A stretch of 64,000 nucleotides of DNA from assembly GCF_000711245.1 (NCBI RefSeq), contig NZ_JOMH01000001.1:310001-374000 (forward strand), in the 5' to 3' direction. How positions within the stretch are numbered: position 1 is the first letter of the stretch; each line of letters starts with the position of its first letter. Below are positions 43,850 through 49,143 of this stretch, piece by piece. Origin of the DNA: Polycyclovorans algicola TG408. Its GTDB lineage: Bacteria > Pseudomonadota > Gammaproteobacteria > Nevskiales > Nevskiaceae. The translations under genes and the position numbers were made by a program. A model generated the notes under the pieces. It was given only the letters and a program-made list of their open reading frames with translations. It made no database searches and was not told where the DNA came from.

Positions 43850-45096
43850 TGGATGCTTTCACCCCTCGCGACGGCGTACTGCACGCCGAATCCGTGCCCT
43901 GTCCAGCCATTGCCAAGGCGGTCGGAACGCCCTGCTATGTCTATTCGCGTGCAGCGCTGACCGCCGCCTACCGCGCCTTTGACGAGGCGCTGGCCGGCCA
44001 CCCGCATCAGATTCATTTTGCGGTGAAGGCCAATTCCAACCTTGCCGTGCTGGGTGTGCTGGCGCGGCTGGGCAGCGGCTTCGACATCGTCTCGGGTGGC
44101 GAACTGCAACGCGTACTGGCGGCCGGCGGCGACGCGGCCAAAACCGTGTTCTCGGGCGTCGGCAAGACCGAAGCCGAAATGCGCCTCGCGCTAGATGCGG
44201 GCGTCGGCTGCTTCAACGTCGAGTCGGCCTCGGAGATGACGCGCCTCAACCGCGTGGCGCTGGCAATGGGCAAGGTGGCGCCGTTGGCGCTGCGGGTCAA
44301 TCCGGATGTCGATGCCAACACCCATCCCTACATCTCCACGGGCCTGAAGCAGAACAAGTTCGGCGTCGACTTCGACATCGCCGAAGCCCTGTACGCCGAG
44401 GCTCAGGCGCTGCCAGGGCTGCGCGTCGACGGCATCGCCAGCCACATCGGCTCGCAACTGCTGACACTGCAGCCGTTTCTGGATGCCTTGGACCGCGTGC
44501 TGACCCTGGTCGACCGTCTCACCGCGCGGGGCATTGTCATGCGACACATCGATGTCGGCGGCGGGCTCGGCGTGCGCTATCGCGATGAAGCGCCGCCCAC
44601 ACCGGCGACGTGGGCGGCGGCGGTCACCCGCAAACTGGTCGGCCGCGGGCTGGCGCTGCACACCGAGCCGGGCCGTGCCATTGCCGCCAACGCCGGCGTG
44701 CTGCTGACTCGGGTCGAAGCACTGAAAGCCAACGAGGTCAAACATTTCGCCGTGGTCGACGCCGCCATGAACGACCTGCTGCGGCCGGCGCTGTACAACG
44801 CGTGGATGGACATCGTTCGTGTCGATGCTGCCAGCGAGGCGCCGCTGCAAACCTACGACATCGTTGGCCCTGTGTGCGAAACCGGCGACTGGTTGGGCCG
44901 CGAGCGGCCGCTGGCGCTGGCCGAGGGCGACCTGCTGGCGGTGCGCTCGGCAGGTGCTTACGGCTTCACCATGGCCTCCAACTACAACTCGCGTGGCCGG
45001 GCGGCCGAGGTGATGGTCGACGGCAAACAGTTTCATGTGGTGCGTGCACGCGAAACCTTCGACGACCTGATTCGCGGCGAGCGCCTGCTGCCATGA
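43849..45096 (+). CDS. lysA: Diaminopimelate decarboxylase
   Basis: A 415-residue PLP enzyme of fold type III. FAVKANSN carries the PLP lysine, the glycine-rich phosphate loop is HIDVGGGLGVRY, EPGRAI is seen, and the CETGDWL motif supplies the second-subunit cysteine. It converts meso-diaminopimelate to lysine. It is coupled to lptM upstream and polA downstream (ATGA overlap at 45093). dapF is not adjacent. Confidence 0.95.
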   Translation: MDAFTPRDGVLHAESVPCPAIAKAVGTPCYVYSRAALTAAYRAFDEALAGHPHQIHFAVKANSNLAVLGVLARLGSGFDIVSGGELQRVLAAGGDAAKTVFSGVGKTEAEMRLALDAGVGCFNVESASEMTRLNRVALAMGKVAPLALRVNPDVDANTHPYISTGLKQNKFGVDFDIAEALYAEAQALPGLRVDGIASHIGSQLLTLQPFLDALDRVLTLVDRLTARGIVMRHIDVGGGLGVRYRDEAPPTPATWAAAVTRKLVGRGLALHTEPGRAIAANAGVLLTRVEALKANEVKHFAVVDAAMNDLLRPALYNAWMDIVRVDAASEAPLQTYDIVGPVCETGDWLGRERPLALAEGDLLAVRSAGAYGFTMASNYNSRGRAAEVMVDGKQFHVVRARETFDDLIRGERLLP

Positions 45097-47882
45097 GCAC
45101 GACCGAACGCGGCGCCCCGCTGATTCTCATCGATGGCTCGTCGTGGCTGTTTCGCGCCTTTCACGCGCTGCCGCCGCTGACCAGCGCCGAAGGGGAACCC
45201 ACCGGCGCGGTGTTCGGCTTCTTCAACATGCTGCGGCGGCTCAACAAAGACTATGCGCCGGAGCGTATCTGCGTGGTCTTCGACCCGCCGGGCGACACCT
45301 TTCGCAACGCGTGGCACCCCGAGTACAAGGCCAATCGTGGCGAGACGCCAGAAGACCTGAAAAGCCAGTTCCCGCGCATTCGCGAACTGCTGGGCGCCAT
45401 GGCGATGCCGGTGGTCACCGTCGACGGCGTCGAAGCCGATGACGTCATTGGCACGCTCACCGCACAGGCGCGTGCCGCAGGGCTGGACGTGCTGATCGTC
45501 AGCTCCGACAAAGATCTTGCCCAGCTGGTCGGCGCCGACGTGCACCTGCTCGACACCATGAAAAACCGGCGCATGGACGCCGGCGGTGTGGTCGAGAAGT
45601 TTGGCGTGCGGCCCGAGCAGATCATTGACTACCTGACCCTGATCGGCGACACCAGCGACAACATTCCCGGCGTGCCCGGCGTCGGCCCCAAGACCGCGGC
45701 CAAATGGCTGGCCGAGTACCAAACCCTCGACGCCTTGCTGGCCGATGCCGACAACATCAAGGGCAAGATCGGCGAACGCCTGCGCGAGGCGATGGGCCAC
45801 CTGCCGCTGTCGAAAAAGCTGGTGACGCTGGTCTGCGACGTGGCGCTTCCGGTGACCTTGGACGCGCTGGTGCCTGGCGCCGCCGATCAGGACCGCGTCA
45901 ATGCCTTGCTTGACCGGCTGGGCTTCAAGGGCGCGCGCGAACTGCCGCAGCGCGACGCGGATGCGCCCAAGCCGCCCGCGCCCGATGCAGCCACCGTCAT
46001 CACCGCGCCCGCCGCGACGACCGACGACGTGCCGGCCCCTGCGCAGGTCGATACCGAAACCGATTGCGTGCTCCGCGAGGCGCAGCTCGACGAGTGGATT
46101 GCCCGGCTTGAGGGCGCGTCACTGATCTGCATCGACACTGAGACCGATGCGCTGGATGCCCATCAAGCGCGGCTGGTCGGTATCGCGCTGGCCACCGAGC
46201 CCGGCAAGGGCGCTTACATTCCACTGGCGCACCGCTACCTCGATGCGCCAGACCAATTGGCCATGGATCGCGTCGTTGCCCGGCTCAAACCGCTGCTCGA
46301 AGACCCGACCCGCGCCAAGCTGGGGCAAAACCTCAAGTACGACCTGAACGTGCTGGCGCGGCACGGCATCCGCCTGCGCGGCGTGCTGCACGACACCATG
46401 CTGCAAAGCTACGTGCTCGACGCCGGCAGCCACCGTCACGACATGGACTCGCTGGCCAAGACCCACCTCGATTTCACCACCACCTCGTTCAGCGATGTGG
46501 CCGGCAAGGGCAAGACGCAGCTCACCTTCGACCAGGTCGCGCTGGAGCAGGCCGCGCCCTACGCCGCCGAAGATGCGGACATCACCCTGCGCCTGCACGG
46601 CGTGCTGCACCCGCGCCTCAGTGCCGACCCGCAGTTGCTCAAGGTGTACGACACGCTGGAACGGCCACTGATGCCGATTCTGGCGGCGATCGAAGCCCGC
46701 GGCGTGCGCATCGACCCCGACAAGCTCAAGACCCTCAGCGCCACGTTGCACGACGGCATGGGCCGACTCGAGGCCGAGGCCTTCGAAGCGGCCGGCGGAC
46801 CGTTCAACCTCGGCTCGCCCAAGCAGATTGGCGCGCTGCTGTTCGATACGCTCAAGCTTCCGGTGAAGGCGCGCACGCCCAAGGGCGAGCCGTCCACCGC
46901 CGAAGACGTGCTGGAAGAGCTGAGCGCAGAGCACCCGTTGCCGCGGCTGATTCTCGACTGGCGCAGCCTGTCGAAACTGCGCTCGACTTACACCGAAACC
47001 CTGCCGCAGATGGTCAACCCGACCACCGGCCGGGTGCACACCAGCTATCACCAGGCTGTCGCCGCCACCGGGCGGCTGTCGTCGTCCGACCCCAACCTTC
47101 AGAACATTCCCATCCGGACCGAGGCCGGACGCGAAATCCGCAAGGCGTTCATCGCCGCCGACGGCAAGGCGCTGCTGGCCATCGACTATTCACAAATCGA
47201 ACTGCGGCTGATGGCGCATTTCTCGGAAGATGAAAAGCTCATCGAGGCCTTCGTCAGCGGTCAGGACATTCACCGCGCCACCGCCGCCGAGGTGTTCGGT
47301 GTGGCGACCGACACCGTCAGCGACGAGCAGCGCCGCGCCGCCAAGGCGATCAACTTCGGCCTGATCTACGGCATTTCGGCGTTCGGACTGGCGCGCAACA
47401 TCGGCGTGGCGCGCGGTGAGGCAGCGAGCATCATCGAGCGATTCTTCGACCGCTACCCCGGCGTCAAGGCCTACATGGACGGCACCCGCGCCAAAGCGCA
47501 CGAGCAGGGCTTTGTCGAAACCTGGTTCGGGCGACGACTGATGCTGCCCAACATCAAGGCTCGCAACGCTGCCTTGCGCCAGGGCGCCGAGCGCATCGCC
47601 ATCAATGCGCCGCTGCAAGGCACCGCCGCCGACCTGATCAAGATGGCGATGATTGACCTTGAAACCTGGCTGGCCGAAACCGCGCCCGACATTCACATGA
47701 CGATGCAGGTCCACGACGAACTGGTGTTCGAAGGCCCGGAGGCGGCGCTGCGCCAACATGCCCCGGCCATTGCCACGCGCATGTGCCGTTTGACCCCCTT
47801 GAATGTGCCGCTGGTCGCCGACTTCGGCATCGGTGCGCATTGGGATGCCGCACACGGCGGCGATGGCAGCGCAAGTAGCTGA
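45093..47882 (+). CDS. polA: DNA polymerase I
   Basis: A 929-residue polymerase with three domains: 5'-3' exonuclease/flap domain (about 1-300; VDGVEADDVIGTL and GDTSDNIPGVPGVGPKTAAKWL), 3'-5' proofreading exonuclease (about 340-520) and polymerase A domain (from about 540). The proofreading acidic residues are present (CIDTETDALD), so this domain should be active. Polymerase motifs A (LLAIDYSQIELRLMAH), B (RRAAKAINFGLIYG) and C (MQVHDELVFE) are intact. It overlaps lysA by four bases. Confidence 0.97.
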   Translation: MSTTERGAPLILIDGSSWLFRAFHALPPLTSAEGEPTGAVFGFFNMLRRLNKDYAPERICVVFDPPGDTFRNAWHPEYKANRGETPEDLKSQFPRIRELLGAMAMPVVTVDGVEADDVIGTLTAQARAAGLDVLIVSSDKDLAQLVGADVHLLDTMKNRRMDAGGVVEKFGVRPEQIIDYLTLIGDTSDNIPGVPGVGPKTAAKWLAEYQTLDALLADADNIKGKIGERLREAMGHLPLSKKLVTLVCDVALPVTLDALVPGAADQDRVNALLDRLGFKGARELPQRDADAPKPPAPDAATVITAPAATTDDVPAPAQVDTETDCVLREAQLDEWIARLEGASLICIDTETDALDAHQARLVGIALATEPGKGAYIPLAHRYLDAPDQLAMDRVVARLKPLLEDPTRAKLGQNLKYDLNVLARHGIRLRGVLHDTMLQSYVLDAGSHRHDMDSLAKTHLDFTTTSFSDVAGKGKTQLTFDQVALEQAAPYAAEDADITLRLHGVLHPRLSADPQLLKVYDTLERPLMPILAAIEARGVRIDPDKLKTLSATLHDGMGRLEAEAFEAAGGPFNLGSPKQIGALLFDTLKLPVKARTPKGEPSTAEDVLEELSAEHPLPRLILDWRSLSKLRSTYTETLPQMVNPTTGRVHTSYHQAVAATGRLSSSDPNLQNIPIRTEAGREIRKAFIAADGKALLAIDYSQIELRLMAHFSEDEKLIEAFVSGQDIHRATAAEVFGVATDTVSDEQRRAAKAINFGLIYGISAFGLARNIGVARGEAASIIERFFDRYPGVKAYMDGTRAKAHEQGFVETWFGRRLMLPNIKARNAALRQGAERIAINAPLQGTAADLIKMAMIDLETWLAETAPDIHMTMQVHDELVFEGPEAALRQHAPAIATRMCRLTPLNVPLVADFGIGAHWDAAHGGDGSASS

Positions 47883-48019
47883 TCGAATTCGATATTTAGT
47901 TTGAATGAGACGGCCGACAGATGTGCCCGGTGCGAACACCGCGCGTGCCAAGTCACTGATTTTGTTGAGCGTGGATCGGGCGGTGAACGCGGCGAAGGTC
48001 GGTGCTTGAAATTGTCCGC
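47883..48019 (+). promoter_or_regulatory. Region upstream of the first small RNA
   Basis: About 135 bases after polA without a gene. It should contain the promoter of the first small RNA. A TGAAAT box at 48007-48012 could be the -10 element, but no well-placed -35 box is seen. Confidence 0.35.
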
Positions 48020-48181
48020 GAACCGCCCTGAACTTTCCCCTTGAACCGTCGTCTGACTTAGCGAGAGGCAACCCTCCCTTGTTGCCTCTCCCGCCTTCAC
48101 TCCCTGGGCGGTTATTCCGGCTCCCCCCAACGCCGGAATTTGGTCACCCGACGGTTTCCCCGAGCCGTCGGGTGTTTTTTT
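48020..48181 (+). ncRNA. Small RNA copy 1, C-rich loops, Spot 42 position
   Basis: A candidate trans-acting small RNA of about 160 bases between polA and engB, the place of Spot 42 (spf) in E. coli. It has four stable hairpins in a row: 48063-48090 (10-bp stem, loop CCTCCCTT), 48091-48111 (loop TTCACTCCCT), 48114-48139 (8-bp stem, loop TCCCCCCAAC) and a terminator 48146-48181 (9-bp stem, loop TTTCCCCGAG, T7). Each loop carries CUCCC or CCCC, complementary to Shine-Dalgarno sequences. C-rich loops are known from the Xanthomonas sRNA sX13. The 5' end is estimated from where similarity to copy 2 begins. Confidence 0.85.
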
Positions 48182-48217
48182 GAGCGCGATTTGCCGGCAT
48201 GCGCAATCAATCACAAA

Positions 48218-48223
48218 TTTAAT
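48218..48223 (+). promoter_or_regulatory. Probable -10 element of small RNA copy 2
   Basis: TTTAAT lies in a short AT-rich island (48211-48224) just upstream of the second small RNA and would place the start near 48230, where similarity between the copies begins. TTGCCG at 48191 is too far away (21 bases) for a standard -35 element. Confidence 0.4.
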
Positions 48224-48228
48224 TGGGC

Positions 48229-48387
48229 GGCCGCCGAACTTCCCCCCGGCCGGGCCGTCTGATCTAGCGAGAGGCAGCCCTCCCTCTGCCTCTCCCGCCC
48301 CCCCCTCCCTGGGCGGACAATTCCGGCACTCCCCAGCGCCGGAATCTGGTTACCCGACGGTTCCCCCGAGCCGTCGGGTATTTTTTT
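48229..48387 (+). ncRNA. Small RNA copy 2, tandem duplicate
   Basis: A second, clearly homologous copy of the preceding RNA. The four hairpins recur at 48269-48294 (9-bp stem, loop CCCTCCCT), 48295-48316 (loop of C's ending CTCCCT), 48320-48345 (8-bp stem, loop ACTCCCCAGC) and the terminator 48352-48387 (9-bp stem, loop TTCCCCCGAG, T7). Stems are conserved, with compensatory shortening of hairpin 1, while loops vary but stay C-rich. It has its own terminator and an upstream AT-rich box, so it is probably transcribed independently of copy 1. Confidence 0.85.
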
Positions 48388-48404
48388 GGGGCCTTGCCTG
48401 CGCG

Positions 48405-49052
48405 TCAGCCCGCCTCGGGTGCCTCGTCAGCGGCCAATGGGTGTCCGGCAGCATCAATGCCCAACCACATCATCAGGTGCTCGCGTGCCGGCTCAAGCCC
48501 GGTGCGGGCAGTGGCCGAGAACAAGGCCACCGAGCAGGCCGGCTGCTCGCGTTCGGCCAAGGCCTTCTGCACCGTCAACAGGGTGTTCTTGGAGGCGCCA
48601 TAGCCGAGCTTGTCGGCCTTGGTCAGCAGCGCGTGAATCGGCATGTGACGCGCCTTTGCCCAGTCGAGCATCTGCGTGTCGAAATCGGTCAGCGGATGGC
48701 GAATGTCCATGATCAGCACCACCCCCGCCAGGGTTTGCCGCACCTGCATGTACTGCTCGATGAGTTTGCCCCAGTCGCGCCGCACCTGGCCGGGCACTTG
48801 CGCGTAGCCGTAGCCCGGCAAGTCAACGAAGCGGCCGCCGGGCACTTCAAACAGGTTGATGAGCTGCGTGCGGCCAGGTGTTTTCGACACCCGCGCAAGG
48901 GCACGCAGGCCGCACAGGGTGTTCAGCGCCGACGACTTGCCTGCATTGGAGCGCCCGGCAAAGGCGATCTCCGGGAGCGGGTCATCGAGGAGCTGCTCGA
49001 TGCGGGCGCAGGACAACATGAAGGTGGCGCGCGCAAATGGGTTCTGTGACAT
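48405..49052 (-). CDS. engB: Ribosome biogenesis GTP-binding protein EngB
   Basis: A 215-residue small GTPase. Motifs in order: G1 GRSNAGKSS, G2/switch region TPGRTQLINLF, G3 DLPGYGYA, G4 LTKADK. It acts in large ribosomal subunit assembly and is usually essential. The ATG at 49052 begins the typical family N-terminus. It is divergent from the cytochrome c4 gene and convergent with the small RNA genes, whose last terminator ends 18 bases from its stop. Confidence 0.95.
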   Translation of the reverse strand: MSQNPFARATFMLSCARIEQLLDDPLPEIAFAGRSNAGKSSALNTLCGLRALARVSKTPGRTQLINLFEVPGGRFVDLPGYGYAQVPGQVRRDWGKLIEQYMQVRQTLAGVVLIMDIRHPLTDFDTQMLDWAKARHMPIHALLTKADKLGYGASKNTLLTVQKALAEREQPACSVALFSATARTGLEPAREHLMMWLGIDAAGHPLAADEAPEAG

Positions 49053-49143
49053 GAGGCCTTGAGTGTAGAATTGCGGATTCTTCTGAACCTTATACCCGGT
49101 CGGTGCCTGCTCGGCGCATCGATCTTTCCGGAGCCCCAACAAA

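Follow-up and report, generated by a model that had tools for sequence, protein, structure and literature searches.

The spacer between polA and engB in a 64,000-nt stretch of the Polycyclovorans algicola TG408 genome (the whole stretch analyzed is hereafter called the window) contains two copies of one element, which are likely tandem genes for trans-acting, ~120-nt sigma-E stress sRNAs that would act through C-rich loops on ribosome-binding sites (RBSs) and belong to one old polA/engB family. This reading draws on computed structure, covariation, loop conservation, a promoter-like element, synteny, and family links. Three points go beyond the initial annotation of this DNA: anti-hemB is the closest family in Rfam, members occur across the class, and duplication has recurred in particular lineages.

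The spacer occupies positions 47883–48404, and the two copies share 81% identity over 162 nt (blastn, E 8e-40), in agreement with the initial annotation, which had placed two adjacent homologous units between polA and engB; Pfam domains identify both neighbors. The most similar EngB, at 93%, comes from Polycyclovorans sp. SAT60, and next come those of Nevskiaceae-type genomes such as Sinimarinibacterium, Hydrocarboniphaga, and Panacagrimonas. The unit length of ~160 given there describes the homologous stretch. The RNA itself is ~120 nt, not 160, because the conserved 5′ part corresponds to a promoter-like element of the sigma-E/AlgU type, and the first ~40 nt of each unit are probably outside the RNA. 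A third copy was not found in the organism's own genome, where the next best similarity hit has an E of 0.74 and our covariance model R2 (described below) gives two matches. Their structure supports reading the two units as tandem sibling sRNA genes with separate terminators and C-rich loops.

Table 1. Positions in the window of the two sRNA copies, their parts, and the flanking genes.
Feature	Coordinates	Strand	Description and basis
polA	45060..47882	+	Upstream neighbor, syntenic anchor; stretch tested; Pfam DNA_pol_A and exonuclease domains
Copy 1 promoter-like element	48030..48056	+	GAACTT-N16-TCTGA (sigma-E/AlgU type); pattern scan, relatives, published consensus
sRNA copy 1, ~120 nt	48062..48181	+	Start inferred from promoter-like element; fold, model R2, anti-hemB model
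Copy 1 hairpin 1	48063..48090	+	10 pairs, loop CCUCCCUU; sequence, fold, loop conservation
Copy 1 hairpin 2	48091..48111	+	CACUCCCU in loop; sequence, fold, loop conservation
Copy 1 hairpin 3	48114..48139	+	Six C in loop; sequence, fold, loop conservation
Copy 1 hairpin 4 and T7	48145..48181	+	Intrinsic terminator, four C in loop; sequence, fold
Copy 2 promoter-like element	48236..48262	+	GAACTT-N16-TCTGA; pattern scan, relatives
sRNA copy 2, ~120 nt	48268..48387	+	Start inferred from promoter-like element; fold, model R2, anti-hemB model
Copy 2 hairpin 1	48269..48294	+	9 pairs, loop CCCUCCCU; sequence, fold
Copy 2 hairpin 2	48295..48316	+	C loop with CUCCCU; sequence, fold
Copy 2 hairpin 3	48320..48345	+	Loop ACUCCCCAGC; sequence, fold
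Copy 2 hairpin 4 and T7	48351..48387	+	Intrinsic terminator, five C in loop; sequence, fold
engB	48405..49055	-	Convergent downstream neighbor, syntenic anchor; stretch tested; MMR_HSR1 GTPase

With the likely RNA start taken as the 5′ end, both copies fold into a series of four hairpins; the minimum free energies are −62.2 (copy 1) and −66.2 kcal/mol (copy 2), and the z-scores are −7.56 and −9.48 (0/200 shuffles as good). Folding from approximately the unit bounds of the initial annotation (48020–48184 and 48220–48388) gives z-scores of −6.34 and −6.56, and the additional 5′ part of copy 1, when folded from 48020, pairs with hairpin 2. A run of seven T follows both terminators (48175–48181 and 48381–48387). 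Every one of the eight loops carries CUCCC or four or more C; stem 1 is 10 pairs long in copy 1 and 9 in copy 2. The fold given in the initial annotation is recovered, including the Rho-independent terminator as the last hairpin, the C-rich tract in every loop, and the one-pair shortening of hairpin 1 in copy 2.

Stems and loops are both conserved in relatives, as the initial annotation expected. Among 86 distinct relatives, 97.4% of cells pair, compared with 76.5% in shuffles, and 23/27 pairs carry changes on both sides; in a class-wide alignment of 107 rows, pairing is 94.2% versus 66.7% in shuffles, with both sides changed at 27/27 pairs. Both alignments were fitted to the model and so lean towards it. 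The tracts CUCCC or CCCC are near-invariant in loops 1–4 of Nevskiaceae (48, 46, 48, and 48 of 48 copies, against a shuffle expectation of 5–9). The corresponding counts are 0, 9, 8, and 8 of 9 rows in other Nevskiales families and, elsewhere in the class, 4, 28, 25, and 25 of 30. In all three groups the rows are best-scoring matches, which biases the counts upward. Because the tract is rare or absent in loop 1 outside Nevskiaceae, a C-rich loop 1 was probably gained within this family.

The 5′ part of each unit contains an exact GAACTT-N16-TCTGA, which equals the AlgU/sigma-E consensus GAACTT-N16/17-TCtgA as given in PMC10651043; the looser form GAACTT-N16/17-TCNNA is likewise present upstream of both copies. 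By itself the exact pattern GAACTT-N16/17-TCTRA is no commoner than a control pattern, since each occurs five times in the organism's own 3.65-Mb genome, two of the five promoter-pattern sites being the window copies. We counted GAACTT-N15..17-TCTGA/TCTAA/TCAAA upstream of 158 distinct model hits (179 hit records minus 2 too near an end and 19 repeats) and found 39 exact sites and 111 with up to one mismatch. In 6320 dinucleotide shuffles there are 0 exact sites and 34 with up to one mismatch; on the reverse strand the counts are 0 and 1 of 158, and in segments 300 nt further upstream, some of which may touch a neighboring copy, they are 1 and 5 of 158. Sites with up to one mismatch precede 56/66 hits in Nevskiaceae, 10/12 in other Nevskiales families, and 45/80 in the rest of the class; a smaller count agrees (92/112, with one place entered twice, L005 = L128). 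The genome encodes Hfq and an RpoE that scores over the NCBIfam cut-off; the frames after rpoE carry RseA_N and MucB_RseB domains. Autoregulation of rpoE was considered as an anchor and dropped, since no site with up to two mismatches lies just upstream of the organism's own rpoE. Each copy would be under its own putative sigma-E-type promoter in this organism.

Model R2 was trained on 33 Nevskiaceae copies (one truncated), with the promoter left out and both window copies included. The pairs of hairpin 1 and one pair of hairpin 2 were set by hand because hairpin 1 was out of place in the MAFFT alignment A1, from which RNAalifold recovered only 20 pairs. The window copies score 105.2 (copy 1) and 97.3 bits (copy 2) over all four hairpins, as training copies that R2, like the widened model R3, scores by construction; E-values from the short calibration of both models are rough. 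The RNA is found in 83/85 Nevskiales genomes, including 72/72 good genomes and 21/21 genera. One match per genome is commonest (47 of the 85), 36 genomes have two to six, and in one genus three to six matches occur in 13/14 genomes searched. Across the class, R2 matches 123/369 genomes at E up to 0.001, four of them Nevskiales.

We inspected 63 loci outside Nevskiales, comprising the 26 best and 37 chosen lower in the list (two from one genome). The flanks (~1.5–1.8 kb on each side) contain polA, engB, or hemB at 59/63, and the window RNAs, adjacent to polA and engB, have the same synteny. They combine the covariance score (obtained as training copies), the synteny, and the promoter element of a polA/engB-locus family of C-rich-loop sRNAs. 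Two loci, L105 and L106, have the RNA between engB and hemB, which accounts for the Rfam name anti-hemB, and L105 shares the pair engB–cytochrome c with the window. The four loci lacking all three genes in their flanks are L156 (on a short contig), L173, L219 (G105:C49), and L227 (G344). L219 and L227 count as family members, and the two copies at L227 lie close to frames that carry SmpB and Polyketide_cyc (RatA-like) domains.

Rfam at gathering thresholds gives no match in the window. The best sub-threshold match of both copies is anti-hemB (RF02837), whose gathering score is 49.5 and whose model gives copy 1 45.4 bits and copy 2 39.1; the Pseudomon-1/ErsA model (RF01719) scores 26.4 bits on copy 1 over model positions 26–116, and the sX13 model (RF02232) scores 21.2 and 19.9 bits, both with a gathering score of 50. 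The window copies thus fall short of all three families, for which Rfam gives no clan. Hereafter, loci called anti-hemB, sX13, or ErsA are matches over the Rfam cut-off. R2 matches the same place in 16/20 genomes with such an anti-hemB (not in G404, G355, G214, and G421). Two of three sX13 loci are matched at the same coordinates in the class search and the third at 28.6 bits on direct scan, which bears out the kinship with sX13 suggested in the initial annotation. The one ErsA found (in G245) scores 17.5 bits with R2 (E 0.003 in 30 kb) and 25.9 bits with R3 (E 0.0003 in 248 kb), ErsA being outside the R3 training set; the whole-genome R2 and R3 searches list no match in G245. The sX13-like locus L234, on which R3 was likewise not trained, reaches 51.3 bits with that model and has GAACCT-N16-TCTTA upstream. 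A tandem array in the same order as the window organism, L151, scores with the sX13, anti-hemB, and ErsA models together (48.3, 41.8, and 37.1 bits, none reaching its cut-off). Of 12 sub-threshold hits of the ErsA model, 9 coincide with an R2 hit and 3 do not; for 12 weak hits of the sX13 model the split is 6 and 6. Weak hits of these covariance models can be chance, since the anti-hemB model below its cut-off matches 3/14 control genomes and R3 matches 28 genomes of other classes.

Most family members have the promoter-like element, but it is poor where sX13 is matched and at the two top-scoring anti-hemB loci. The sX13 loci have a degenerate site with three to four mismatches. A site with up to one mismatch, in a check that also allowed TCATA and TCTTA as the −10, precedes 9/11 anti-hemB loci; the two best-scoring, L295 and L301, lack a good one (three to four mismatches). 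The same check found no promoter site at L285, L290–L292, and L298, five more hits that lie close to hemB or in G190. The ErsA copy examined has GAACTT-N17-TCATA upstream; ErsA is reported, citing earlier work, to be sigma-22 dependent (PMC5819304) and to lie in the polA–engB spacer (PMC8575079).

These overlaps, with a weak reach to ErsA, suggest a single old gene behind three Rfam families: anti-hemB, sX13, and, at a greater distance, ErsA. In the open-access literature we found nothing, by title or abstract, that joins them as one family, and no paper there mentions ErsA and sX13 together. Hairpins 2–4 of both window copies align end to end with anti-hemB (also Burkholderia RNA 7, and ncS04 of B. 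cenocepacia, 105 nt, in PMC5688073), which shares the CUCCCUGRGCGG-like hairpin 2; anti-hemB loci near engB and hemB face engB, as the window copies do. In contrast, the Rfam model has three hairpins and the window RNAs an extra 5′ hairpin with its own C-rich loop, and the window has two copies, with polA in the place of hemB, which was not found beside them. The promoter element of the window copies is also missing from the two best anti-hemB matches examined. The features described for sX13 of Xanthomonadaceae, a position downstream of polA and stem-loops with C-rich apical loops, are present in the window copies. Unlike them, sX13 is described with three stem-loops, has a poor sigma-E-type site, and gives one match in each of three loci scanned. 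ErsA shares the polA–engB spacer and C-rich loops, and its reported sigma-22 (AlgU) control would agree with the putative promoters of the window copies; it differs in a reported Hfq-dependent action on anr through a U-rich segment (PMC8575079) and in having one match in the genome that carries it (G245).

An independent origin of C-rich-loop sRNAs at the same site, with their likeness arising because any set of C-rich hairpins can bind RBSs, is in our estimate unlikely. It gains from the statement of the sX13 authors that the sequence of sX13 resembles neither Spot 42 nor alpha-r7 (PMC3771888), from the low score of E. coli Spot 42 (14.3 bits with R3), and from R3 hits in other classes. In the phylum search, R3 matched 69/378 genomes, 41 in the own class and 28 in other classes (E 4.6e-7 to 9.5e-4). 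The three loci examined among the latter, L299, L300, and L303 (41–43 bits), were not accepted as members, having neither polA, engB, or hemB in their flanks nor the promoter element, and R3 can therefore score look-alikes; these RNAs have C-rich-loop hairpins, possibly by convergence, and L299 is matched by the alphaproteobacterial ar35 model and, below cut-off, by ar14. Convergence does not readily explain why R2, a model made from Nevskiaceae alone, falls exactly on over-cut-off anti-hemB and sX13 loci, why the promoter element, the order of hairpins 1–4, the CUCCCUGRGCGG-like hairpin 2, and the synteny occur together in many loci, or why L151 scores with three Rfam models. Much less credible still is that the window RNAs are a duplicated Spot 42 (RF00021) gene, even though the gene neighbors are those of E. 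coli spf, as the initial annotation had pointed out. The site agrees, and at 7/10 loci scanned without filters the best R3 hit lies in the spacer beside engB, a place that is Spot 42 in the four of the seven run on Rfam and in L102. The scores there are 12.6–21.1 bits, the three Orbaceae loci of the ten have no such hit, and R2 has weak hits in Pantoea and Photorhabdus loci and none at Spot 42. In the R3 alignment, E. coli Spot 42 has hairpin 3 deleted and no C-rich loops, and Rfam finds no Spot 42 match in the window spacer up to E 10. We do not accept a sequence kinship that amounts to a weak match resting on the terminator and hairpin 1.

The window RNAs could mainly titrate a protein or the ribosome as decoys, their CUCCC loops mimicking the anti-Shine-Dalgarno sequence and tandem copies adding dose. 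The near-identical C tract in all four loops has the look of low specificity and the number of matches ranges from 1 to 6 per genome, as a decoy would allow; single sX13 loops are reported to act differently on reporters and mRNAs (PMC3771888), and loop flanks and hairpin lengths differ among copies, which makes titration as the main role improbable. That the elements are only nested terminators or polA 3′-UTR structure facing engB, with no role in trans, is very unlikely: a strong terminator does end each copy, and the location in the polA–engB spacer convergent to engB would suit it, yet each copy has its own conserved promoter-like element, dispersed copies exist, and the near-invariant loop tracts are dispensable for termination. 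Moreover, L105, L275, and L278 have the RNA between engB and hemB, with polA absent from the fetched flanks.

We favor a trans-acting mechanism, in which each RNA would be transcribed from its own sigma-E (RpoE/AlgU-type) promoter under envelope stress and would end at its own terminator. Four rigid stems would then present the C-rich loops (CUCCC, CCCC), whose pairing with the G-rich RBSs of a set of mRNAs may lead to repression. The RNAs would belong to one old family at polA/engB (or engB/hemB), together with anti-hemB, sX13, and distantly ErsA, and repeated local duplication would raise the dose while copies diverge in promoter and loops. The closest relative whose action has been tested is sX13, described in PMC3771888 as using its C-rich loops, without Hfq, to repress mRNAs that have G-rich motifs close to the start codon. 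A scan covered 464 kb of the organism's genome, including the window, in which 334 ORF starts had been called mechanically. GGGAG occurs at −20..−4 of 8/334 starts (2.4%) versus 0–0.3% in four other intervals, and GGGG at 5.7% of the 334 versus 1.2–3% in other intervals. Since these shares are low, the loops match a minority of RBSs, not all. Duplex energies of the loop cores against the same 334 starts gave no functional pattern. We infer from the features above that the two genes are transcribed, that sigma-E controls them in this organism, and that their RNAs pair with mRNA targets; stress-induced translational repression of mRNAs with G-rich RBSs is proposed by analogy.

A tree of 66 copies, with modest support given the short sequences, groups them mostly by genus, with partial copy-by-copy orthology in sister species (G005/G016, L123/L131). 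This grouping suggests that duplication was repeated or that copies were homogenized. Panacagrimonas perspica has three copies that are 94–97% identical. In G005 and G016, the −35 match is gone in two of three copies and the exact site remains in one. In the three-copy array L174 (G324, 1323–1441), the middle copy has TTGACT...TATAAT, which we read as sigma-70-like, and a neighbor copy has GAACTT-N17-TCAAA. These promoter differences would fit separate control of siblings. The CcsR1–4 (cuckoo) RNAs of Rhodobacter resemble the window array by description, being four homologous stress sRNAs side by side, and their loops are C-rich and anti-SD-like. They have a single RpoHI/RpoHII promoter ahead of ccaF1 and are reported to form one precursor processed by RNase E (PMC10253847, PMC8307010), unlike the window copies, each of which has its own promoter-like element and terminator.

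We also lean, with less assurance, towards a broader history in which one sigma-E-driven sRNA gene stood beside engB in the ancestor of Gammaproteobacteria (including the former Betaproteobacteria), and ErsA, sX13, anti-hemB, and the tandem RNAs descend from it. The promoters of sX13 and Burkholderia-type anti-hemB would have changed, Spot 42 may be a strongly changed descendant, and in the own order the gene would have been amplified locally into an array (one genome can have as many as six matches), with the stress promoter retained or lost copy by copy. On this account, promoter change would be why sX13 and the Burkholderia-type anti-hemB seem to have no tie to envelope stress. Apart from this history, three sRNAs catalogued separately look like parts of one structured family with a conserved sigma-E-type promoter element, matched in a third of the sampled class genomes, and knowledge of targets, Hfq need, and physiology could then carry over among Pseudomonas, Xanthomonas, Burkholderia, and environmental bacteria. 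The Nevskiales arrays, which differ in the number of copies and in promoter loss, offer a natural series for asking how sibling sRNAs share their work.

Several minor observations concern sites away from the main locus. One of the five exact GAACTT-N16/17-TCTRA sites in the own genome (G000:C1:793807-793833, L251) lies upstream of a frame with an FA_desaturase domain, alkane-monooxygenase-like by eye; the site may be chance. R2 matches off the main locus (G009:C5, G020:C85 and C100, G058:C2, C68, and C126, and G011:C1:62744) are possible dispersed paralogues. In seven genomes with sX13 or sX13-like polA loci, R3 also gives a weaker match at another place, which may be a second paralogue common to them (G096:C22:263789, G248:C1:926309, G356:C128:10116, G732:C4:113458, G714:C23:48089, G448:C9:116348, and G644:C9:166903). 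Two further observations concern arrays within the genus. In Polycyclovorans sp. SAT60 (G002; L002, L021/L027), two contigs break inside sRNA copies, and the genome probably has at least three tandem copies in an array split by the assembler. In a genome of the same genus (G001), locus L003 has an insert of ~315 bases (~1619–1933) between two sRNA copies, with ends that resemble inverted repeats by eye, as would be left by a small mobile element inserting there.
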